DNA of 51,297 nt from Nevskiaceae bacterium (GTDB lineage Bacteria > Pseudomonadota > Gammaproteobacteria > Nevskiales > Nevskiaceae): assembly GCA_021731445.1 (NCBI GenBank), contig JAKFXK010000024.1, forward strand, positions 1 to 51,297. The letters are read 5' to 3'. Below are positions 16,186-42,937 of this stretch, piece by piece. The first letter of the stretch is position 1. Every line of letters starts with the position of its first letter. The notes below the pieces were generated by a model. The model ran no database searches and was not told the origin of the DNA. It was given only the letters and a program-made list of their open reading frames with translations. Both the position numbers and the translations under genes were made by a program.

Positions 16186-17040
16186 ATGGATCAACTGAAC
16201 TGGCTGACCGAGAACCTCTACTACCTCGCCATTCCGTATTTTCTGATCGCGATGGCCTACGAGATCCGGGTGCTGCGCACGGCCACGCATCTCAAGGGCT
16301 ACGAGTGGCGCGACAGTGCCACCAGCATCAGCCTTGGCGTATTCAACCTCGCCATGCGCGCGGTGTTTGCCGTGGTGACGATCACCGTGTCGTTCATGGT
16401 CTACGAGCACCGCCTGTTCGATCTCAGCCCGCTGCTGTGGTGGACCTGGCCGCTGCTGTGGGTGGCGGAGGACTTCACCTTCTACTGGTATCACCGCGCC
16501 AGCCACCGCATCCGCTTCATGTGGGCCGATCACGTCAATCACCATTCCAGCCAGCACTACAACCTCTCCACGGCGCTGCGCCAGCCAGTGATCGAGATGG
16601 CCTGGGCCTGGGTGCTGTGGTTGCCGCTGGTACTGATCGGCTTCCACCCGGTGGCGGTCGCACTCGCAGCCGGCCTGAACCTGCTCTACCAATTCTGGAT
16701 TCACACCGAGTCGGTGCGGCACATCGGCTTCTTCGAGCGCTTCATGAACACCCCGAGCCACCACCGCGTACACCACGGCAGCAACCCCGAATACATCGAC
16801 AAGAACTACGGCGGCTGGCTGATCGTCTGGGATAAATGGTTCGGCACCTTCACGCCGGAAACCGTGCCGGTGCGCTATGGGCTGGTGCACAACATCAGCA
16901 GCTTCAACCCGTTCAAGGTCATCACCCACGAGTGGGCTTTCATGCTCAGGCAGTCGTGGCGGGCGAAAAACCTCAGGCACAAGCTGGGCTGGGTGTTCGG
17001 GCCGCCGGAATGGATGCCCAAGGGTGCCGCCAAGCCATGA
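16186..17040 (+). CDS. Sterol desaturase/fatty acid hydroxylase family membrane di-iron protein
   Basis: 284 residues with about four hydrophobic segments. The eight-His di-iron signature is complete: HRASH (HX3H), HVNHHSSQHYN (HX2HH), a central His region (FWIHTESVRHIGF) and HHRVHHG (HX2HH). These enzymes hydroxylate or desaturate lipids with O2 at the inner face of the membrane. The ATG at 16186 begins MDQLNWLTENLYYLAI, a plausible first membrane helix. Its stop overlaps the start of the DUF2867 gene (ATGA), and that gene in turn overlaps the epoxide-hydrolase-like gene, so the three are translationally coupled. Substrate unknown; a hydroxylated lipid handled by the two partners is an inference. 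Confidence 0.92.
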   Translation: MDQLNWLTENLYYLAIPYFLIAMAYEIRVLRTATHLKGYEWRDSATSISLGVFNLAMRAVFAVVTITVSFMVYEHRLFDLSPLLWWTWPLLWVAEDFTFYWYHRASHRIRFMWADHVNHHSSQHYNLSTALRQPVIEMAWAWVLWLPLVLIGFHPVAVALAAGLNLLYQFWIHTESVRHIGFFERFMNTPSHHRVHHGSNPEYIDKNYGGWLIVWDKWFGTFTPETVPVRYGLVHNISSFNPFKVITHEWAFMLRQSWRAKNLRHKLGWVFGPPEWMPKGAAKP

Positions 17041-17519
17041 AGGTCATCCCCGTTGAACCAGATGCTATGGCAGCCGTAACGCTGCCTGGGCTGTCGTTCG
17101 CAGATGCCTATCGTGTCGTCACCCCCATCACCGGCTTCGATGCCCGCCATGCCGCGCAGGCGATATTCGACAGCCCGCCCGCGTGGGCCAACGCGCTGAT
17201 GGCCGTGCGCAATCGCGTGATGGGCCTGTTCGGTGTGAAGAACGCCCCCGAACACTTTGCGCACGCAACCATCGCGCGCGTCGGTATGTTCCCGGTGGTA
17301 TCTGAAACCGCTGAAGTGATCCTGCTCGGCTTCGATGACCTCCATCTGGACTTTCGCATCGCAGTCACACTAGGCGCACTCTCTAGCGGCGGCACGGCGG
17401 TGACCGTGACCACCGCCGTGCTCACCCACAACCTTCTAGGCCGCGTGTATCTCGCAGTGATCCTGCCGTTTCACCGGCTGCTTGCGCGCCACATGCTCAG
17501 TCGCGCCAAGTTCGACTGA
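17037..17519 (+). CDS. DUF2867 family protein
   Basis: 160 residues beginning at the ATG at 17037, which overlaps the preceding stop by 4 bases; the open frame further upstream is a shadow of that gene. Visible DUF2867-like blocks: TPITGFDARHAAQAIFDSPPAWANALMAVRNRVMGLFGV near 30-65, FPVVSETAEVILLGFDDLHLDFRIAV in the middle, and an amphipathic/hydrophobic C-terminal helix (VYLAVILPFHRLLARHML). DUF2867 proteins resemble small lipid-binding folds and are sometimes fused to NAD-dependent epimerase-like proteins; no activity is established. Position between a lipid oxygenase-like and an epoxide-hydrolase-like gene hints at handling a hydrophobic intermediate, which is inference. Confidence 0.8.
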   Translation: MKVIPVEPDAMAAVTLPGLSFADAYRVVTPITGFDARHAAQAIFDSPPAWANALMAVRNRVMGLFGVKNAPEHFAHATIARVGMFPVVSETAEVILLGFDDLHLDFRIAVTLGALSSGGTAVTVTTAVLTHNLLGRVYLAVILPFHRLLARHMLSRAKFD

Positions 17520-18394
17520 TGCAGCAGAAATCGCTGCACGCCAACAACCTCGACTTTGCTTATTTGCAAGCCGGGCCGAGCGACGGCCCGCTCGCCCTGT
17601 TCCTGCATGGCTACCCGGATAGCGCGACCACTTGGCAGCACCAGCTACCCGCCTTTGCCGCCGCCGGCTATCACGCCGTGGCCCCGTGGCTGCGCGGCTA
17701 TCCGCCCAGCGAGATTCCGCCGCCCGGCGCCTATTACGACCGCGCCACGCTCGCCACCGATGTCGCCGAGATCATCAAGGTTTTGAGCCCAGACAAACTC
17801 TGCGTGCTGATCGGCCAGGACTGGGGTGCGGCCATTGGCTACGGAGTGCTGGCGGCCTATCCGCAGTGCGTCTCGCGCGCGGCATTGCTGGCGGTGCCGC
17901 ATCCGGCGCAGGTGCGCGCCACCCTCAAGAGCTCGCCTAAGCACGCGCTGCGCTCCTTCCACTGGTTTCTGTTCCAGCTGCCTTGGCTGCCGGAGTGGCT
18001 GTGCGCGCGGCGCGATTACGCTTTTCTCGAAACGCTGTGGCGGCTCTGGTCGCCAGACTTCGACGACACACTGCACGTCACTGAGATCCGCCGCAGCATG
18101 GCTGCACCCGGCGCACTGCAGGCCAGCCTCGCCTACTACCGCGCGATGTTCGGCAAACGCAACGCCGACCCGGCATTGGCCGCCGTGCGGGCGCGGCTTG
18201 ATGCGCCCATTGCCGTACCCACGCGCGTGCTCATCGGTGGGCAGGACATGCGCCGCGAGATGCTGGAACCGGCGCGCCGCTACTTCACCGGCGAGTACGA
18301 GTGGACGACCGTGCCCGGCACCGGGCACTTCCTGCACCGTGAGGCGCCGGAGACGGTCAATGCGTTGTTGCTGGATTGGGTGAATCGGTTTTGA
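17519..18394 (+). CDS. Alpha/beta hydrolase, epoxide-hydrolase/haloalkane-dehalogenase type
   Basis: 291 residues. The nucleophile motif is GQDWGA with Asp101, which separates it from Ser-type esterases and points to epoxide hydrolase or dehalogenase chemistry. The oxyanion motif HGYPDS is at 30-35, and the catalytic His is in GTGHFLH (His270). The cap region lies around 130-215 with Tyr/Trp residues, including AYYRAMFGK. The ATG shares one base with the DUF2867 stop (TGATG), so translation is coupled. Cytoplasmic, no signal peptide. With the upstream di-iron enzyme it could open an epoxide formed on a lipid; this is inference from the operon. Confidence 0.87.
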   Translation: MQQKSLHANNLDFAYLQAGPSDGPLALFLHGYPDSATTWQHQLPAFAAAGYHAVAPWLRGYPPSEIPPPGAYYDRATLATDVAEIIKVLSPDKLCVLIGQDWGAAIGYGVLAAYPQCVSRAALLAVPHPAQVRATLKSSPKHALRSFHWFLFQLPWLPEWLCARRDYAFLETLWRLWSPDFDDTLHVTEIRRSMAAPGALQASLAYYRAMFGKRNADPALAAVRARLDAPIAVPTRVLIGGQDMRREMLEPARRYFTGEYEWTTVPGTGHFLHREAPETVNALLLDWVNRF

Positions 18395-18505
18395 TGTGGG
18401 CTGCTTTCAGCCCAAAGAGCGGACGGCCGATGCTCCACGTCGGCTTCTACCGCTATGGGATTTCCAGCTCGGTAGTTCCGCACATCCAGAAGAATCTATC
18501 GTGAA

Positions 18506-19975
18506 GTGGCTTCCATTCCGAAACGGCGGACAATCTATCTAGATACGATCGGCACCGTGGACAACCAAGCCTCAGACACCCGCTACTACAACGATTACAA
18601 GCCAATCCGGAATGCCCTGCGCAAATACGATCCGGTGAGTGTGATGTATGCCGTGCTGCAATATTTATACGGGCCCGTTCACGGAAAACTCGACCGCTTG
18701 GGGCGCCATCCGTGGATTGGAATGCTTCTGATCAAATGGGCGTTCATCGATGAGCAGGCGGGGCTTAAAGGTCGTCCCGCCATTACCCCACAGAAGTTCG
18801 GAGCTCTTTACAGAGCTGCGATCGATCTCGGCGGGTCTACCAATGGTCCGAACAGCTACCCAAACATTTCAATGTTTGTAAGGTCCGTCGCCTACCAACA
18901 ATTTCTGTATCAGCGAGATGAGAATATCGTTGGCATTGCGCGGCAGGAGCTTCTGTTCGCAAGCGCGGATAGCACTCTGTCCAAAAGCCGATTTTTGGCG
19001 GCGACGGGAGTTTCGATTCCGAATTTTCTCCGTCTGTTGCTCTGCACGATGTTGCAGATCATGCAGACGCGGGCGCCTGAGATGGATCAATCCTGGTTTC
19101 AGTTTCTTTATCAGGACTATCCTGCCGCCGAGGTTGAAGCGTTTCTGCACTCGATCTCGATCCGTGTCGAGGATTTGCCTGCAACTCTTCGAGCATCCGA
19201 CCGCCTCGGCCGCACCATTCCCGAATACAACGCGCCCACGCCGTTTATCTCTCATCCCCTGGTCCGGATTGGATCGAGGTATTTCTGCGTCTATCCAGAG
19301 ATCCTGCAGAAAGCCTGTGAGCACTTCGTCTACGACAAACTCAAGAAGCTCAACGATTCGAAGATCGATCGGGCGTTTGGAACTGCCTTCGAGAAATATG
19401 TCGGAGACCGGTTGCTGGAAACCGAGCTACCTCTGGCGGCTGAAGCAGACCTTGAGCGCCTCCTGAATGGCAGTGGAAAGCTGATTGATTTTCTGGTCAC
19501 CGACGCAGGCGCGAACGTCTTCGTAGAAGCCAAAGGCGTCGAAATGGCTGTGACTGGCATGGCCACGACCCGACAAGGCGACATCAAGAACGCCACCGAA
19601 AATTCACTCCGAAAGGCGATCAGACAAGCGTACGAGGTCAATGCTCGGCTGGCTGCGAATGGCGAAGCTCACCCAGTGATCCAGTATCGGCCCGACAGCT
19701 ATCTTTTGGTCATCACCTACAAGGAGCTGTACATCCATAACGGCGCCGCATTACGAGAAGCCATAGGAGTGCAGAGTTTCGACGCGTTGGGCGAGGGCAT
19801 TGCACCGCAGAACTTGATTCCACCAGAGAACATGTATTTTCTGACCATCGAAGAGTTGGAGCACTTTGTCGAGTTCGTGAAAGTGCGCAAGCCCGGTTTG
19901 GTGGACGGGATCGAGCGGGCGAAAGCCGATGACGCACAAGTTCGCGTTTCAACTGCACCTAGCGAATTGGGATAA
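18506..19975 (+). CDS. Orphan protein with C-terminal PD-(D/E)XK nuclease signature
   Basis: 489 residues if the GTG at 18506 is used; the frame is open further upstream without an ATG, so the start is uncertain. The N-terminal ~280 residues are helical and unrecognised (RNALRKYDPVSVMYAVLQYLYG, WIGMLLIKWAFIDEQAG). A PD-(D/E)XK arrangement follows: Glu296 (AFGTAFEKYVGDR), Asp328 (KLIDFLV) and Glu341-Ala-Lys343 (VFVEAKG). Such cores cut DNA and occur in restriction and anti-phage proteins. Codon texture and GC look lower than in flanking genes, and the gene is isolated between unrelated housekeeping genes, suggesting transfer. A defence role is inference. A 48-codon ORF overlaps its 3' end. It could also be a repair or uncharacterised nuclease. 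Confidence 0.75.
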   Translation: MASIPKRRTIYLDTIGTVDNQASDTRYYNDYKPIRNALRKYDPVSVMYAVLQYLYGPVHGKLDRLGRHPWIGMLLIKWAFIDEQAGLKGRPAITPQKFGALYRAAIDLGGSTNGPNSYPNISMFVRSVAYQQFLYQRDENIVGIARQELLFASADSTLSKSRFLAATGVSIPNFLRLLLCTMLQIMQTRAPEMDQSWFQFLYQDYPAAEVEAFLHSISIRVEDLPATLRASDRLGRTIPEYNAPTPFISHPLVRIGSRYFCVYPEILQKACEHFVYDKLKKLNDSKIDRAFGTAFEKYVGDRLLETELPLAAEADLERLLNGSGKLIDFLVTDAGANVFVEAKGVEMAVTGMATTRQGDIKNATENSLRKAIRQAYEVNARLAANGEAHPVIQYRPDSYLLVITYKELYIHNGAALREAIGVQSFDALGEGIAPQNLIPPENMYFLTIEELEHFVEFVKVRKPGLVDGIERAKADDAQVRVSTAPSELG

Positions 19976-20075
19976 GCCGATCGGCACGATCTCGACGACG
20001 TTACTGAGAGCGCAGGAGCGGCTTTTCGCAGATGTGGAACAGGCTCTCCGCCGTGGAAGGCCAGACGACCCCTGA
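19929..20075 (+). CDS. Possible small ORF (48 aa) overlapping the nuclease gene
   Basis: ATG at 19929, in another frame than the nuclease gene and overlapping its last 47 bases. The product would begin MTHKFAFQLHLANWDKPIG and contain a helix (TTLLRAQERLFADVEQALRR). Composition is plausible for a real protein, and overlapping starts are common in two-gene modules, but there is no strong ribosome site and no recognised family. It could be spurious or a remnant of a longer gene. Confidence 0.35.
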   Translation: MTHKFAFQLHLANWDKPIGTISTTLLRAQERLFADVEQALRRGRPDDP

Positions 20076-20201
20076 GTTCTAGGGCGTTGGCCACAATGCT
20101 TGGGCAGCCGGTATTTACGAGCGTCAGCTTCTGGCACGTAATTGCCGATCACCACCACCCATTCCACCCCGAAGCTAGCTTTTGCAGGCGCCGCGTGCGG
20201 G

Positions 20202-22532
20202 CTATCGAACCCTGGAGTTGCCCCGCTCGCGACAGCGCCGGAATCTCTGCAGTAGTGGCTGGTATGTCGCTTCTTCCATGGGGCCGGCAGCTACCCACTC
20301 GATCGCCAAGCTGTCCAGGTGCATCTCATCGCCCCTGACACCCTGGCCCAGGCTCTGCACCAGGCGTTGCAACTGGTATTCGCGACGCAAGGCTTGATCC
20401 TCTGGCGGCGTCGGCAGGTCGGTCAGTATTTCGGCCCGGATGCAGAGCCGCTTCAGTGCCAGCTCATTCGCTGCCAGATCTGCGGAGCATTCACGAGCGA
20501 GCCCCTGCTTGAGGGCATCGAGCCCGCCCTTGGGCCATCGCGGGACGGAGGCGATGTAGGTTTCGGCAGCTGCTTTCAAAGCGTCGCACTGCACCGTGTC
20601 CGCACTGCGTGCCACGGCGAGTTTGTAGGCGCGCACCTGGTTGGCGGCTTCGAACAGATCGTGCCAGGCCCGCTCGGCATCACGTGCATGCTGGCGCGCG
20701 ATGGACTCTTCGCAGCGATCCAGACCCCGATCGAATCGGCTGCGTAGCTCACGCGACTCCGCACGCGGAAACTCGCCGAGCGCGTCGAACGCACGCCGCA
20801 GTTCGGCCAGCGCAGCCGCGCGCTCCAGTAACTCGGGCCCTTCGAGAGCGGCGATCTGCTCGAGTTGCTCGCACAAGGCAAGGGCCTGTGTCTTGTTGTT
20901 CTCAAGCCCGGCCGTGTAGCTGGCAAACGCCTGCTGGCGCTTTTGGAACACAGCATCGCAGTGCTGGCGGAACTCCCCCCAGAGGCGTTGATCCACCTCG
21001 CGCGGCACCGGGCCCACGGCCTGCCACTGCTGCTGCAGCTCCTTGATGGCGTCGATGGCCTTGCGATCATCGTCGCTCGCAAGCAAGGCCTGGGCGCGCG
21101 CGATCAACGACTGCTTTTGCTCCAGGTTGCGGGCGTGCTCGGCATCCAGTCGCCCCTGCAGGCTGGCGGTGAGGGCCACGAACGTCTCCTGCTGCGGCTT
21201 GCTGGCGCGGCGGTCGACAGGCGAGTAGCTGCGCCACTCTTCTTTGGTCTCGCGCAGAACCCTGATGACGGCCCGCCAGTCGGCTTGCTCCCAGTGGGTT
21301 CCCGCCTCGAACGCGGTCAACTTGGCGAGCAAGGCATCGCGACGCCGCAGATTCTCCTGGAGGATCAGCGCCTGGGCAGCAAAATATTCGGCGCACGGCA
21401 GATACGCCTTCTCGGCGGCGTCCTTGAAGCGTTGCCCATCGGCTTCGAGAACAGGGTCAAGATTGGCGCCGGCGCCCTTGCCCAGCGTGCGCCACTCCTC
21501 TTGCAGACGCTTGATCCGCTCGGCGAGCGCCAGTGGCTCCAGCGTCGCGTCGACGAGCGACTCCATCTCCTCGATCAGCTCGGCGCGCTTCGGCGTCACG
21601 GAAAAACTCTTCCAGTCCTTCAACTCGTCGAGCTGTTTGTCGAGCTGTTGCAGCTGGCTGGCGAGGTTGGCCGGCAGCGGCGGGGCTCCCGCCAGCTTGT
21701 CATCGATGGCCCGTCGCACTGCGGCCGCGCGGGAGCTGCTGCCATCGCTCAGCGCGCCCCGTGCCTTGCGGATCAGTTCGCCGATCTGGCGAACCGCCTG
21801 CTGCTCGGTCTGCTGCTGTTCGGCCAGCGCTTTGTTCTGCTCCTCAAGCGCCTGTTCCTGCTCGGCTGCAATCGCGGCGGATGCCTGCGCCTGCTGCTCG
21901 CGCAGACGCTGCGCCTCTGCGGCCGCATTGGCGGCAGCCAGCGCATGTGCGGCCTGAGCCGCCGACTGGCGCAAGTGCTCTGCAAGGGTCTCGCGTGCAC
22001 GGTCGATCCACTGCTGCACTCTGCCTTGCAGCTCTGGGTCAGCCTGCGCGGACACCACCTCCCAGCGGCTCTCGAACTGAGTGAGTATCGGGCTGTACGA
22101 GGCGTCGTACGCGCCTTGGCTGTGGCGCTCGAGGGCGGCCGAAGCCGCATGGATCTCGGCTTGCAACTGCTTGCGCTTGCGGGCCTGCTCGAGCAACACA
22201 TCGCGCTTGGCGCTCAGGATCTTGTAGACCCCCTTGTCATTGCCACCGCGAAGATCGCGGATGAGTTGCCGCAGCAGCTCCGGATCTTCGATCACCTGAG
22301 CCGCTGACTGGCGGATCCTGGTCGATGTCCCCGCAACGACCAGCCGGGCCACCGCCTGGATGTCCTGGGCATCGATGGCCGCCTGCAAGGCTTGCTCCTC
22401 CGCAGCAGCGGCCAGCGCGCGATCCGCTGTGCCCGCCTTGGCAAGAGCAGGGTCGGCCTTGGCGGACGGTGCCCGTTGGGGAGCTGCAGAAAGCGCTGGC
22501 GCTTTGCGAAACAATCGCGAGAAGAACGACAT
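20202..22532 (-). CDS. DUF349 repeat, coiled-coil protein
   Basis: 776 residues from the ATG at 22532 (MSFFSRLFRKAP); the longer frame to 22616 is unlikely. After a short basic N terminus and Ala-rich linker comes a HEAT-like helical segment (~45-105), a long Ala/Gln/Glu coiled coil (~170-260), and several DUF349-type units marked by LQEEWRTLGKGAG, TKEEWRSYSPVDRRAS and LQQQWQAVGPVPREVDQRLWGEFR. The W-x-x-x-G/P pattern repeats at regular distance. The role of DUF349 proteins is not established; they are probably cytoplasmic scaffolds. It ends ~125 bases from the orphan-nuclease module and starts ~155 bases from the lolD stop; both neighbours seem unrelated. Confidence 0.85.
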   Translation of the reverse strand: MSFFSRLFRKAPALSAAPQRAPSAKADPALAKAGTADRALAAAAEEQALQAAIDAQDIQAVARLVVAGTSTRIRQSAAQVIEDPELLRQLIRDLRGGNDKGVYKILSAKRDVLLEQARKRKQLQAEIHAASAALERHSQGAYDASYSPILTQFESRWEVVSAQADPELQGRVQQWIDRARETLAEHLRQSAAQAAHALAAANAAAEAQRLREQQAQASAAIAAEQEQALEEQNKALAEQQQTEQQAVRQIGELIRKARGALSDGSSSRAAAVRRAIDDKLAGAPPLPANLASQLQQLDKQLDELKDWKSFSVTPKRAELIEEMESLVDATLEPLALAERIKRLQEEWRTLGKGAGANLDPVLEADGQRFKDAAEKAYLPCAEYFAAQALILQENLRRRDALLAKLTAFEAGTHWEQADWRAVIRVLRETKEEWRSYSPVDRRASKPQQETFVALTASLQGRLDAEHARNLEQKQSLIARAQALLASDDDRKAIDAIKELQQQWQAVGPVPREVDQRLWGEFRQHCDAVFQKRQQAFASYTAGLENNKTQALALCEQLEQIAALEGPELLERAAALAELRRAFDALGEFPRAESRELRSRFDRGLDRCEESIARQHARDAERAWHDLFEAANQVRAYKLAVARSADTVQCDALKAAAETYIASVPRWPKGGLDALKQGLARECSADLAANELALKRLCIRAEILTDLPTPPEDQALRREYQLQRLVQSLGQGVRGDEMHLDSLAIEWVAAGPMEEATYQPLLQRFRRCRERGNSRVR

Positions 22533-22686
22533 TGTTGACCTGCGCAGCGAAGGGTTTGAAGGGCCGCGGATTCTACCTGCGCGGGAGCCAGCGTTATGCA
22601 GGAGCAGGCGCATCAAGCCCCCACGGCCTTGAGCACCGCCTTTGATGCTTCAAATGCGCCGTGCGCCAATGACGCGTTCGCTGCGG

Positions 22687-23370
22687 TCAGAGCTCGGTCA
22701 AGCGGCCATCCACCAGCGTGTAGCGCCGCTCCATGCGCGCAGCCAGCTTCATGTCGTGCGTCACCACCACTAGGCTGGTGCCGAGTTCGCGGTTGAGTTC
22801 CAGCATCAGCTCAAAGACTTTTTCGGCAGTGGCTGCATCGAGGTTGCCGGTGGGTTCGTCGGCAAGCACCGCAGCAGGCCTTGTGACCAGCGCGCGCGCA
22901 ACCGCAGCACGCTGACGCTCGCCACCGGAGAGTTCGCCCGGCTTGTGCTCAAGGCGTTCGCCCAGGCCGACGCGGCTCAACAACTCGGCGGCCTGCGCCT
23001 TGGCCTGCCGGGCGGGCATGCGGCGGATCAACAGCGGCATCGCCACATTTTCCAGCGCGGTGAACTCCGGCAGCAGGTGGTGAAACTGGTAGACAAAGCC
23101 CAGCGACTTGTTGCGCAGCACGCCGCGCGCGGCATCGCTCAGGCCGCTGATCTTTTCGCCCGCCACCCACACCTCGCCCGCAGTAGGCGCGTCGAGGCCA
23201 CCCATCAGGTGCAGCAGGGTGGACTTGCCGCTGCCGGAGGCACCGACGATGGCAATGCGCTCGCCGCGCGCCACCTCGAGGTCCACACCTTTGAGCACCG
23301 TGAGATTGAGGCGGCCGTCGTCGAAGGTCCTGGTGACAGCCTGCGCCTTGAGGATGATGTCGCTCATCAT
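22687..23370 (-). CDS. lolD: Lipoprotein-releasing ABC transporter ATPase
   Basis: Powers release of mature lipoproteins from the inner membrane to LolA; 227 residues. Walker [11 protein letters not shown]-loop [19 protein letters not shown] (the LolD-type motif), signature LSGGERQR, Walker [12 protein letters not shown] and switch His (VVTHDMKLA) are all present. Two adjacent start codons (23370, 23367) follow GAGG. The start overlaps the stop of the permease gene (ATGA), so the two are translationally coupled, with the permease first. No separate second permease is seen. Confidence 0.95.
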
Positions 23371-30473: not shown

Positions 30474-30683
30474 ATGGAATCCGCGCCGAACACTGACCAG
30501 TCCATCGCACGCCAAGCCCGCAAGTTCCGACTGGGTGAAGAGCCAAAGGAGTATGCGTATTGGCTGACACGCCCCCTGGCTGAGCGTGTGGCGGCCGTTA
30601 CGCAAATCATCCATAGCCATCACGGGTGGACCGATGCAACTGAGCCGAGACTTGCGCGAGTTTCTCGCGTGCTTAAACGCTGA
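30474..30683 (+). CDS. Small protein (69 aa) overlapping the nucleotidyltransferase gene
   Basis: ATG at 30474. The product is charged and helical: IARQARKFRLGEEPKEYAYWLTRPLAERVAAVTQIIHSHHGW, with a basic C terminus (RLARVSRVLKR). No named family recognised, but small ORFs of this kind directly upstream of a nucleotidyltransferase, overlapping its start, are a recurring arrangement. Here the overlap is 50 bases. By context it may be the antitoxin or regulatory partner of the next gene; that is inference. Confidence 0.65.
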   Translation: MESAPNTDQSIARQARKFRLGEEPKEYAYWLTRPLAERVAAVTQIIHSHHGWTDATEPRLARVSRVLKR

Positions 30684-31080
30684 GGGCGTGCGGTACCTGG
30701 TGGTGGGCGGCTACGCCGTTGCCGTCCACGGTCACCCTCGCTACACCAAGGATTTGGATGTCTGGGTTGAGGCCTCGTCCATCAATGCGCAGCGCGTGAT
30801 GCAGGCCTTGGAGTCATTCGGGTTCGGCGGACTCGACATCACAGCTAACGACTTCATCGCCCCCGGCATGGTCGTACAGCTGGGTCAGCCACCGCAGCGT
30901 ATTGATCTACTGACGCAGGCTGATGGTGTGGAGTTTTCCGACTGCTATGCGAGTCGCATCAAACTTGATATGGACGGCGAGACAATCACCTTTATCGATC
31001 TCGCCAACCTGCGCAAGAACAAGCGAGCCAGCGGCAGGCCCCGCGATCTAGCAGACTTGGACGACCTGCCCGAGGCCTGA
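30634..31080 (+). CDS. Nucleotidyltransferase-fold protein (possible toxin of a two-gene module)
   Basis: 148 residues from the ATG at 30634, in frame with a longer open stretch. The Pol-beta/MNT-type signature is intact: VVGGYAVAVHGHPRYTKDLDVWV (Gly25-Gly26, Asp40-x-Asp42) and a third acidic residue in QRIDLLTQ (Asp91). C-terminal helices follow (FIDLANLRKNKRASGRPRDLADLDDL), as in AbiEii-like/DUF6036-type proteins, which transfer nucleotides to RNA or protein in some toxin-antitoxin systems. It overlaps the 69-residue upstream gene and is followed 34 bases later by a GNAT gene. No HEPN partner is present. The toxin role is inference. Confidence 0.75.
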   Translation: MQLSRDLREFLACLNAEGVRYLVVGGYAVAVHGHPRYTKDLDVWVEASSINAQRVMQALESFGFGGLDITANDFIAPGMVVQLGQPPQRIDLLTQADGVEFSDCYASRIKLDMDGETITFIDLANLRKNKRASGRPRDLADLDDLPEA

Positions 31081-31114
31081 GTACAGGCCTGTCGTGATCA
31101 CTCGTTCCGACACC

Positions 31115-31576
31115 ATGCAAATCCGCATCGACGATCTCAAAGGCCCAGAAATCGCGGCGCTGTTGCAGGAGCACCTCGCCGACATGCACGCGACTTCGCC
31201 GCGCGAGAGCGTGCATGCGCTGGACCTCGATGGCCTGCGCAAGCCGGAGATCACTTTCTGGACGGTCTGGGACGAAACGACTCTGGCAGGCTGCGGCGCA
31301 CTCAAGCAGATCGATGCGGGCCACGCCGAGATCAAGTCCATGCGCGTTGCGCAGGCTTTTCGTCGGCGTGGGGTGGCCGCGCTGCTGCTTGAGCATGTTC
31401 TCGGCATTGCCGCCGCGCGCGGCTACCAGCGCCTCAGTCTGGAAACCGGCTCGCAGACGTTTTTCGAGCCGGCGAGACAGCTCTACGCCAAGTACGGCTT
31501 TGTCGGGTGCGATCCCTTCGCCGGCTACCGGCCTGACCCCAACAGCGTGTTCATGACGCGTCGGATCGAGAGCTAA
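31115..31576 (+). CDS. GNAT-family N-acetyltransferase
   Basis: 153 residues from the ATG at 31115 (MQIRIDDLKGPEIAALL). The acetyl-CoA binding motif A is seen as IKSMRVAQAFRRRGVAALLLEHVLG (RxxGxA type), with motif B near LETGSQTFFEPARQLYAKYGFVGCDPFAGY. Such small GNATs acetylate amines of proteins, amino acids or antibiotics; FEPARQLYAKYGF is typical of the PhnO/ElaA-like uncharacterised group. It ends 10 bases from the convergent acylase gene. It could be transcribed with the nucleotidyltransferase pair, but shares no obvious function with it. Confidence 0.85.
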   Translation: MQIRIDDLKGPEIAALLQEHLADMHATSPRESVHALDLDGLRKPEITFWTVWDETTLAGCGALKQIDAGHAEIKSMRVAQAFRRRGVAALLLEHVLGIAAARGYQRLSLETGSQTFFEPARQLYAKYGFVGCDPFAGYRPDPNSVFMTRRIES

Positions 31577-39293: not shown

Positions 39294-41057
39294 ATGAACG
39301 AACTGCCAAGCCGCCTGACCCTGCGCCATGTGCTCGATGCACTGAAAGCCGACGGCCTGCTGACCCCGGATCAGATCGCCGCCCTGCTGATGCGCGTGCG
39401 GGAGGACACCGCGCTGCATCCCCTGGTGGTGGTGGCAGAGATGGATTTCCCCCACGCTCGCGAACCCAACCGCAAGCTGACGCTGGAGGCGCTCACCACC
39501 TGGCTTGCCGGCAAGACCGGCCTGCCCTACCTGCGCATCGACCCGCTCAGCATCGAGGTCGGCAAGGTCACGGCCCTCATCCCCTACGCCTACGCCGCGC
39601 GGCTGAAGATATTGCCGGTGAAAGTGACGAGCGCGGAGGCGGTGATCGCCGTCTCAGACCCCTATGCACTGGAATGGGAAAAAGAGCTTAGCCCCCGCAT
39701 CAAGCAGCAGCTCAAGCTGGTGCTCGCCAACCCCAGGGACATCGAGCGCTACTCGGTCGAGTTCTACGCACTCGCCCGTTCGGTCAAGGCCAGCCAGACC
39801 ACCCAGGGCCGTGCACCCAGCGCCTTGCAGAACTTCGAGCAGCTCACCCAGCTCGGCAAGGCGGGCAATCTCAGCGCTGACGACTCGCATGTCATCGGCA
39901 TCGTCGATTGGCTCTTGCAATTCGCTTTCGATCAGCGCGCCAGCGACATCCACATCGAGCCGCGGCGCGAGCAGGGCACGGTGCGCTTCCGCATCGACGG
40001 CACGCTGCACGAGGTCTATCAACTGCCCGTGTCGCTGGTGCCACCCGTGACCAGCCGCATCAAGATGCTGGCGCGCATGGACCTCGCCGAAAAACGCCGC
40101 CCCCAGGATGGCCGCGTGAAAACCCGCAGCCCCGAAGGCCGCGAGGTGGAGTTGCGCGTATCAAGCCTGCCGACGGCATTTGGCGAGAAGCTGGTCTTGC
40201 GCATCTTCGACCCCGACGTGCTGGTCAAGGACTTTGCCGCCCTCGGCTTCGGCCCCGAGGACGAGGCGCGCTGGCGCGCACTGATCGAACAGCCGCACGG
40301 CATCATCCTGGTCACCGGCCCCACCGGCAGCGGCAAGACCACGACGCTGTACTCGACGCTCAAGTTGCTCGCCACCAGCGAAGTCAACGTCTGCACCATT
40401 GAAGACCCGATCGAGCTGGTGGAGCCGAGCTTCAATCAGATGCAGGTGCAGGCCAACATCAATCTCGGCTTCGCCGATGGCGTGCGCGCGCTGCTGCGAC
40501 AAGACCCCGACATCATCATGGTCGGCGAAATCCGCGATCTCGAAACCGCCGAGAACGCGGTGCAGGCGGCACTCACCGGGCATCTGGTGCTGAGCACGCT
40601 GCACACCAACGATGCGCCGAGCGCGATCATCCGCCTGCTGGACTTGGGCGTGCCCAGCTATCTCATCAAGGCCAGCGTGCTGGGTGTGATGGCACAGCGG
40701 CTGGTGCGGCAGCTGTGCCCGCATTGCAAGCGGCCTGCGGTGGTCGATCCTGCGCTCTGGACGCGGCTCACGGCGGGGCAGTTGCCGCAGCCCTTACCGG
40801 GTGAGGTGTATGAGCCGGTGGGTTGTCTGGAGTGCCGCGAGACGGGTTATCTGGGGCGCGTAGGGGCCTACGAGATTCTCACTACCGATGAGGCTCTGCG
40901 GGCGGCGATGGATGGGCAGTCAGATCGCACGGTGTTGCACAAGATTGGGCGAGCTGGGGGGATGACGCCCTTGCGACTGGCGGCGGCGCGGTCGGCCTTG
41001 CAGGGGAAGACTTCCTTGGCGGATGTGGCGGCGTTGACGCCGGATTTGGAGGCCTAG
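39294..41057 (+). CDS. GspE/PilB-family secretion or pilus assembly ATPase
   Basis: Hexameric cytoplasmic ATPase that drives type II secretion or type IV pilus extension; 587 residues. Contains an N-terminal GspE_N/MshEN-type domain (~10-160), the N2 domain with ASDIHIEPRREQGTVRFRIDGTL, Walker A GPTGSGKTTT (342-351), Asp box, Walker B RQDPDIIMVGEIRD, His box LVLSTLHTND, arginine-rich QRLVRQLC, and a tetracysteine zinc region (CPHC, then CLEC). All catalytic motifs are intact. The neighbouring assembly genes (inner-membrane platform, pilin, peptidase) are absent, so it cannot be assigned to pilus or T2SS; TfpX/Z-like and ComEC genes in the window make a pilus/competence link plausible. Confidence 0.93.
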   Translation: MNELPSRLTLRHVLDALKADGLLTPDQIAALLMRVREDTALHPLVVVAEMDFPHAREPNRKLTLEALTTWLAGKTGLPYLRIDPLSIEVGKVTALIPYAYAARLKILPVKVTSAEAVIAVSDPYALEWEKELSPRIKQQLKLVLANPRDIERYSVEFYALARSVKASQTTQGRAPSALQNFEQLTQLGKAGNLSADDSHVIGIVDWLLQFAFDQRASDIHIEPRREQGTVRFRIDGTLHEVYQLPVSLVPPVTSRIKMLARMDLAEKRRPQDGRVKTRSPEGREVELRVSSLPTAFGEKLVLRIFDPDVLVKDFAALGFGPEDEARWRALIEQPHGIILVTGPTGSGKTTTLYSTLKLLATSEVNVCTIEDPIELVEPSFNQMQVQANINLGFADGVRALLRQDPDIIMVGEIRDLETAENAVQAALTGHLVLSTLHTNDAPSAIIRLLDLGVPSYLIKASVLGVMAQRLVRQLCPHCKRPAVVDPALWTRLTAGQLPQPLPGEVYEPVGCLECRETGYLGRVGAYEILTTDEALRAAMDGQSDRTVLHKIGRAGGMTPLRLAAARSALQGKTSLADVAALTPDLEA

Positions 41058-41069
41058 TTGGCGTTGACC

Positions 41070-41351
41070 ATGAGCACGTTGCCGCCTGAAGTCATCACTC
41101 GTGACGAGTCGCGGCTTTTTCGCATCGGCCGTTGGCTAAGTGTTATCTGCTTTGCTGGCGTCTTAGCTGCAATGCTATTTCAAAGCTCGCTTGTTGTCTG
41201 GGCATTCGCTATGTTGGCCTGCGTTTACCTACCAGTCGCCTTCTGGTCGTGTCCCCGTTGTCACCATAGCTATGGGGCAAAGTTTGGGTTAATCAGCATT
41301 GTGCTTCCGTATACAAACAAGTGCCTCCACTGCGGCGCACGTTTGGAGTGA
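41070..41351 (+). CDS. Small membrane protein with zinc-ribbon-like Cys pairs
   Basis: 93 residues from the ATG at 41070, 12 bases after the ATPase stop; the in-frame TTG at 41058 would touch that stop. Two hydrophobic segments (~22-37 and ~40-58) are followed by CPRC (61-64) and CLHC (85-88), an arrangement typical of a zinc ribbon on the cytoplasmic side. GC is visibly lower than upstream. No family recognised; probable co-transcription with the ATPase gene suggests, but does not show, an accessory role. Confidence 0.65.
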   Translation: MSTLPPEVITRDESRLFRIGRWLSVICFAGVLAAMLFQSSLVVWAFAMLACVYLPVAFWSCPRCHHSYGAKFGLISIVLPYTNKCLHCGARLE

Positions 41352-41436
41352 CGTAGGGCAGGCAAACATCTTTCCGTTTGTCCACATGGGCCATGCGCAA
41401 CAGCAAGTAGCCCGGATGCAATCCGGATTTCTGCAC

Positions 41437-42079
41437 TTCGCGCTAACGCGCTCTGCTGACTTCGCATTGACATAGAGCTTATTCCGCCTTTTAGGCGTCT
41501 CACTTTTCTTTGCTTGTGCAAAGAAAAGTAAGCAAAAGAAACACCCCCTGCCTCGCACCGGCTAAAGCCGGTTCCTTCGATTCTCGCGTGCTCAGGGTCG
41601 GTCTGACGGCACGTCCTGTGCCGGCAGCCCTCGTTTGGGCATCCATGCCCAAACGACCCCTCCGCGCGCTGCGAGTCTCAGTGCTGCGGAAGGGGCCCGA
41701 CATCACAAGCCAAATCAAAGCAGCTGCAGCTCGTTGCTTCGCAACATCGCACTCAACGACGCGCCAGCACAGTGAAGCGCCCGCTGTGGCTGGTCTGTTG
41801 TTGGTGATGTGCTGTTGGGCCCCTTAGAAGGCGTCGAGAGGCGCAGCTCGCGGAGGGGTGTGCGGCATGAATGCCGCACAAGGGCTGCCGGCACTTAGGA
41901 TGTGCCGTCAGCCCGACCTGAGCACGCGAGCATCGCAGGGCAGTGCGAAGCACCGCCGGATCAGGGTGTGTTTTCTTTTGCCTACTTTTCTTTGCACAAG
42001 CAAAGAAAAGTATGGTCGCCGCCAGGCGAAATCACACTCAAAGCCAGTGCGCAGCTAGCCGAGCGCGTCAGCGCGAAAC
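41437..42079. repeat. ~640-bp imperfect palindrome with CTTTTCTTTGCTTGTGCAAA core
   Basis: Left arm 41437-~41745 and right arm ~41770-42079 align as inverted repeats over their length: the outer GCGCTAACGCGCTC / GCGCTGACGCGCTC blocks, CTTTTCTTTGCTTGTGCAAA plus GAAAAGTAAGCAAAAGAAA (41502-41540) against its complement at ~41972-42009, GCTCAGGGTCGG.CTGACGGCAC, and CCCCTCCGCG...GGGGCCC. The centre is near 41758. The core motif is itself palindromic. No transposase or conserved protein is encoded. Confidence 0.85.
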
Positions 42080-42093
42080 ACGAGCTAAAGACC

Positions 42094-42121
42094 ACTGGAT
42101 TCCCGCCTGCGCGGGAATGAC
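42094..42121. repeat. REP-like single unit (copy E)
   Basis: ACTGGATTCCCGCCTGCGCG + GGAATGAC, inverted orientation relative to unit 1 of copy C. Single, not paired; it abuts the right edge of the large palindrome. Confidence 0.88.
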
Positions 42122-42128
42122 GAGCAAC

Positions 42129-42155
42129 AAAAAAGCCCCGCACGGCGGGGCTTTT
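42129..42155 (-). terminator. Rho-independent terminator (bidirectional form)
   Basis: AAAAAAGCCCCGC-ACG-GCGGGGCTTTT: a 7-bp GC stem flanked by A- and T-runs, 19 bases beyond the stop of the Bax-inhibitor-like gene on the minus strand. It could also stop plus-strand transcripts. Confidence 0.92.
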
Positions 42156-42173
42156 CGAGTAGCAGCCGCTCAA

Positions 42174-42875
42174 TCAATCATCGCTGCTGGCAAAACCCAG
42201 CAAGTGCAGCAGGCTGGTGAAGATGTTGTAGACATCTAGATAAAGCGCAATCGTCGCCATGATGTAGTTGGTCTCGCCACCATTGATGATGCGGCTGGTG
42301 TCGAACAGGATCAGCGCCGAGAACAACAGCACCGACACTGCCGAAAGCGCGATGAAAGCCATGCTCACATCCACCCCGAAAAAGCTCGCGCCCACGGCTG
42401 CCAGCGAAGCGAAGAACAGCACCATCACGCCCACCATCAGGAAGCCGCCCATGAATGAAAAATCCTTCTTGGTCGTCAGCACATAGGCCGAGAGAGAGCC
42501 GAAGATCAGCGCCGTGCCACCGAGGGCGGTCATCACCAGCTCGCCGCCGTTGGGCAGCTTGAGATAGTGGTTGAGCATGGGACCTAAGCCAAAGCCGAGC
42601 AGGCCGGTGATGCCGAACACCACATACAAACCCTTTTCACTGTTGGCAGTGCGCGGCAGCGCGAACCAGATCAGCGCCATCGCCGCCAGCGAGCAGACCA
42701 GCCCCGTGAAACGCGGTGCGCCAACGGCCATCGACAGTGCGGCCGTTACGGCCGAGAACAGCAGCGTCGCGGCCAGCAGCATGTAGGTGTTGCGCAAGAC
42801 CTTGTGCGTTGCCAGCAAGGAACTGGCGTTGCCGAAAGTGCCTTGGGTCGAAACGGTGCGAAGAGGTTGCTGCAT
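42174..42875 (-). CDS. Bax inhibitor-1/YccA family membrane protein
   Basis: 233 residues with seven hydrophobic segments. Family blocks: THKVLRNTYMLLAATLLFSAVTA, a GLYVVFGITGLLGFGLGPMLNHYL middle region, FGSLSAYVLTTKKDFSFMGGFLMVG, and the C-terminal LFDTSRIINGGETNYIMATIALYLDVYNIFTSLLHLLG, which carries the acidic di-Asp/pH-sensor positions of the TMBIM/YccA group. Bacterial relatives include YccA, which modulates FtsH, and BsYetJ, a calcium leak channel; the role here is not specified. GGAG lies 6 bases before the ATG. Independent transcription unit ending at the terminator. Confidence 0.93.
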   Translation of the reverse strand: MQQPLRTVSTQGTFGNASSLLATHKVLRNTYMLLAATLLFSAVTAALSMAVGAPRFTGLVCSLAAMALIWFALPRTANSEKGLYVVFGITGLLGFGLGPMLNHYLKLPNGGELVMTALGGTALIFGSLSAYVLTTKKDFSFMGGFLMVGVMVLFFASLAAVGASFFGVDVSMAFIALSAVSVLLFSALILFDTSRIINGGETNYIMATIALYLDVYNIFTSLLHLLGFASSDD

Positions 42876-42937
42876 GATTGTCTCCGTGAATGTGCAATGA
42901 ATCTGGGGTCGATTGAATCTAGCGCAAGGCCGTGATT

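Follow-up and report, generated by a model that had tools for sequence, protein, structure and literature searches.

Defence genes are common on prophages, plasmids and conjugative elements. Two described systems bear most directly on the locus analysed here: Upx (PDB 9wuf), which we take to be a single-gene anti-phage system and which is met below as a fold match, and GapS1, a known single-gene anti-phage nuclease. PMC12774648, which names Mahata et al. (2024, Nat Microbiol) as the source of the GAPS1 system, also reports that a coding sequence of the Klebsiella prophage ST437-OXA245phi4.1 resembles GAPS1 by structure, with a TM-score of 0.87. The gene from that prophage was recovered in our analysis as a homologue of the protein described here, with 28% identity.

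The window, meaning the whole stretch of 51,297 nucleotides that we analysed (contig JAKFXK010000024.1, from a Nevskiaceae bacterium), contains a 489-codon ORF with a GTG start at 18506-19975 of the forward strand. An earlier note, made from the letters alone, had taken this gene and a small ORF overlapping its 3' end for a possible undescribed defence module. The gene is very probably a horizontally acquired gapS1 carrying a frameshifting deletion of about 14 nt near its 3' end. The features referred to below are as follows.

17024..22713, no strand assigned: accessory stretch with DUF2867, alpha/beta hydrolase, gapS1 and DUF349 genes (blastn/tblastn synteny with genomes G001, G003 and G004; Pfam names)
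18506..19975, + strand: gapS1 homologue, frame as read, 489 aa (NF047931, 371.1 bits; alignment of 16 relatives)
18506..19300, + strand: N-terminal region (about residues 20-265), helical almost throughout, a candidate sensor or regulatory part (AlphaFold model)
19301..19852, + strand: PD-(D/E)XK nuclease core (conservation, secondary structure of the model, individually weak Foldseek matches)
19925..19933, + strand: frameshift junction, about 14 nt shorter than the spacing that relatives keep (alignments and tail position)
19929..20075, + strand: the "48-codon overlapping ORF", in the +1 frame, read as the displaced GapS1 C-terminal tail MTHKFAFQLHLANWDKPIG... (C-terminal profile, BLOSUM62, codon fit)

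Family identity and nuclease core

The NCBIfam model NF047931 (antiphage_GapS1) matched the window protein at 371.1 bits (E 8e-111), above its curated cut-off of 320 bits, over residues 34-480 and model positions 1-446 of 455. Because this one model covers residues 34-480, the N-terminal part of about 280 residues, which had been said to match nothing recognised, belongs to the same family; that family is already named GapS1, after GAPS1, and the description of the system as undescribed has to be dropped. When the same model was run on ten relatives nine scored above the cut-off, the remaining one, L089, reaching 289. The gene looks unknown because both a Pfam scan of the protein (nothing useful, best E 0.17) and a PADLOC 2023 scan (no match) are blank, and the absence of GapS1 from PADLOC 2023 may simply reflect its date. 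A PDB sequence search with the protein was also of no use. The GTG start is supported by the first residues, VASIPKR, opposite which a homologue from Pseudomonas has MAKPPKR in the alignment.

The nuclease triad proposed earlier (Glu296, Asp328, Glu341-x-Lys343) is conserved across 16 aligned relatives: D328 and K343 are invariant, E296 is nearly invariant, and most of them have E or D at position 341. Two further residues had been missed, E313 (invariant) and Q374 (nearly invariant), and the window protein has the whole conserved set (E296, E313, D328, E341, K343 and Q374), all of it before residue 375. Towards the N-terminus the same alignment has invariant columns at P69, R126, Q132, Q136, R146 and P251. 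The AlphaFold model of the window protein (mean pLDDT 83.1, confident to about residue 479) places E296 in helix 285-304, D328 just ahead of strand 329-333, E341 and K343 in strand 336-343 and Q374 in helix 362-385, which in the prediction is the usual PD-(D/E)XK arrangement of catalytic residues. In an intact GapS1 the helical N-terminal region would sense a phage-derived cue, gate on it or be released by it, and the core (E-E-D-(D/E)xK-Q) would cut nucleic acid, most likely DNA, and so stop the infection.

Foldseek searches of the PDB with the models of the window protein and of the intact Pseudomonas homologue L085 returned a single significant match, Upx, at E values of 4.6e-6 and 4.0e-5 for the two models, with a probability of 1.00 and some 520 alignment columns; for the match at 4.6e-6 the TM-score was just 0.35 and the rmsd 10.7. 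Weaker matches, confined to the core, were to BstEII, Nt.BspD6I, Can2, Cdn1 and Hjc (E 0.005 or worse), and a search of a viral structure library gave nothing significant.

Composition, genomic context and distribution

The composition of gapS1 is foreign to the window. Its GC is 0.539, against 0.58-0.70 in 18 other window genes, its GC3 is 0.631, against 0.72-0.89, and its host codon fit, taking the codon use of those 18 genes as the reference, is the worst at 0.448, the other full-size genes tested lying between 0.50 and 0.74. Since GC, GC3 and codon fit all set the gene apart, the earlier remark that it had lower GC and a different codon texture from its neighbours was right, and the equality with flanking genes that would have told against the defence reading was not seen. 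Elsewhere in the window, at 30586-31576, a DUF6036 nucleotidyltransferase gene (GC 0.596, codon fit 0.503) is followed by a GNAT acetyltransferase gene, and these might form a toxin-antitoxin-like or other accessory pair. A second low-GC stretch (0.57-0.59), at 41000-42900, consists mostly of short ORFs upstream of a gene at 42174-42875.

The gene lies in a 5.7-kb stretch (about 17024-22713) between desaturase/comEC and lolD. This stretch is absent from the closest relative, G001, with which the window is collinear on both flanks and which has at the same site one esterase-like gene between desaturase and lolD. Neither G003 nor G004 has the stretch, and G004 carries there a 317-aa ORF whose similar esterase match is sub-threshold. 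As first described the gene is a singleton in place, but it sits inside an accessory stretch, with DUF2867, hydrolase and DUF349 genes. Relatives about 70% identical to the DUF349 gene occur elsewhere in same-genus genomes. No mobility gene, recombinase or attachment repeat was recognised beside the window gapS1, and the direct repeats sought as marks of an insertion site were just short low-identity pairs. Searches of the surrounding DNA for Rfam families, a consensus promoter and a credible terminator came back empty.

Among other genomes gapS1 is patchy. It was found in none of four same-genus genomes, in 2 of 58 genomes from the family (where the second copy has 25% identity and lies close to TraH and TraG_N genes), and, in samples of the class and the phylum, in 4 of 369 and 7 of 398 genomes respectively. 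Conservation in the same place in all relatives, which would mark a core gene, is thus not what the genus (0/4) and family (2/58) counts display. As a lone query the window protein drew no close relative from the genome and viral collections scanned first. The relatives we found share 41-42% identity in Pseudomonas, 41.5% on a faecal "phage" scaffold that is unverified as phage, and about 28-29% in Klebsiella P2-like prophages. They are single genes, often on mobile elements: directly after the integrase in P2-like prophages, on a lambda-like prophage that also carries an integrase and replication protein P, on a conjugative plasmid, and on an integrating conjugative element. In one Klebsiella P2-like prophage (L070:3928-6500) a few bases at the end of the integrase gene are shared with the GapS1 gene, which holds a cargo position there and is likely to be co-transcribed. 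In Pseudomonas laurylsulfativorans (L085:4081-5202) a TniQ-domain gene stands shortly upstream of gapS1 (L085:5950-7488), which suggests carriage by a Tn7-like element.

Membership of NF047931, the patchy distribution, the relatives on mobile elements and the foreign composition together argue that the window gene is a horizontally acquired single-gene PD-(D/E)XK nuclease with a probable anti-phage function. The earlier proposal of a single-gene defence nuclease thus survives, stripped of its novelty and of the small ORF as a module partner. A cellular nuclease of DNA repair or recombination, resembling a Holliday-junction resolvase and having no part in defence, might be read from the weak matches that Foldseek gave between the core and archaeal Hjc. 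These matches however span just 50-180 columns or so at E > 0.3, the fold search, in which Upx alone was significant, matched no housekeeping repair enzyme over its full length, and the patchy presence and mobile-element contexts take the place of the genus-wide conserved position and vertical inheritance that such an enzyme would have, neither of which was observed. We consider this reading very improbable.

The 3' end of the gene and the small overlapping ORF

The gapS1 reading frame is native to about residue 476, after which come 13 out-of-frame residues and a stop; homologues, among them those of Pseudomonas and of the faecal "phage" scaffold, continue for about 40 residues or more past the point of divergence. 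One homologue has the C-terminus ...LEKAKQADSERMTQKFNFELHIHEWSKQLGREQPLREILKSMVDEMRVAF, and the window frame ends ...IERAKADDAQVRVSTAPSELG, then stop. All homologues examined keep the tail stretch in frame. The NF047931 match reaches model position 446 in the window protein, against 454-455 in ten relatives, and we read this incomplete end as damage to a GapS1 member, not as non-membership.

The 48-codon ORF that the earlier note saw inside the 3' end does exist, at 19929-20075, with an ATG start and a 47-base overlap with gapS1; what changes is its meaning. Its sequence MTHKFAFQLHLANWDKPIG aligns with the homologue tail MTQKFNFELHIHEWSKQLG at the expected place, with a BLOSUM62 score of 62 where the best of 500 shuffles reached 46, and against L084, L085 and L088 it outscored all 1000 shuffles each time. 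A C-terminal profile built from 17 homologues and run against 1016 six-frame segments of the window found the small ORF as its sole significant match (E 9e-5; runner-up E 2.6). The codon fit of the small ORF, 0.447, is that of gapS1, 0.448. By a hand count from the alignments, close relatives have nine residues (27 nt) from an AK pair to the KFxF motif and the window has 13 nt, 14 short of 27, and hence the frame change seen. From the profile match, the shuffle tests, the expected place, the codon fit and the spacing we identify the small ORF as the displaced tail of one gene and not a second gene, namely as gapS1's own C-terminus out of frame.

That the locus is instead an undescribed two-part module, a nuclease with a separate overlapping small protein, might be argued from the ATG of the small ORF and its 47-base overlap, but is scarcely credible for a gene whose family is named, whose small ORF aligns where expected with the C-terminus of single-chain homologues, and whose examined homologues have this stretch in frame; no separately expressed conserved small gene was seen at the same position in intact relatives. 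A programmed frameshift was rejected, given a gap of about 14 nt and a junction at which no slippery run was seen.

An error of assembly or binning is harder to dismiss. The frame would then be intact in the cell, where GapS1 would be complete, functional and about 520 aa long, and this would fit a draft in 114 contigs that is 87% complete, a tail that retains its coding character and codon fit, and the lack of any other disabling change in gapS1 in the 16-relative alignment. Sequencing error however typically slips by a single base in a homopolymer, and here about 14 nt are lost; we regard an error of assembly or binning as rather unlikely.

Taking the deletion as genuine, the last two helices, including KFxFxxHL, would be encoded out of frame, and for that reason the product would end in 13 unrelated residues. 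The KFxFxxHL motif is common to distant relatives. In the model of intact L085 (mean pLDDT 84.3, pTM 0.85) the two long helices at the end (471-482 and 489-502) fall in blocks with a pLDDT of about 83-88; in the window model they are missing and the pLDDT is below 50 from residue 480. Because a conserved and structured tail is lost, the copy is probably impaired or inactive, barring an assembly error at the gap. The 489-aa product could still be active if the lost helices were dispensable or served to tune activation, and the catalytic residues and core fold are indeed complete, the model is confident to about residue 479, and the tail varies more in sequence than the core. Against this stand the presence of the tail motif in distant relatives and its order in the intact homologue's model, and we judge continued activity to be unlikely.

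The window copy beside described systems

For both models Upx ranks first among the fold matches, and no other match is significant. It differs from GapS1 in having a chain of 1212 residues, with TM-scores of 0.34-0.35 by query length and an identity of 10-13%, and by sequence no membership was found, PADLOC giving no match and a profile search of solved chains coming back without Upx. We suggest tentatively, and with some doubt, that GapS1 and the larger Upx share both architecture and origin and that the KFxFxxHL tail, lost here, is needed for activation or assembly. If this is true, sensing and cutting by GapS1 could be understood from the structure already solved for Upx. The structural link itself would guide mutational tests.

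With the PD-(D/E)XK nucleases of restriction and CRISPR-ancillary systems GapS1 shares the nuclease core and the arrangement of catalytic residues. Unlike them, the window protein showed neither a methylase partner nor a match to a CARF domain model.

With GapS1 itself the window copy shares a full-length family match above the cut-off, a single-gene organisation, the layout of a helical N-terminal region and a C-terminal nuclease, and relatives on mobile elements. It departs from GapS1 in the frameshift near the 3' end, which removes the conserved tail, in having neither Gamma-Mobile-Trio nor any other recombinase adjoining it, and in that the closest relatives found are merely about 42% identical. 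The analysis adds to the known range of GapS1 one copy that is divergent and apparently damaged, sets right the mistaken reading of the locus as two genes, and yields as by-products a family-wide set of conserved residues and a C-terminal tail motif. The window gene is an apparently damaged new member of the known GapS1 family, not an undescribed system.
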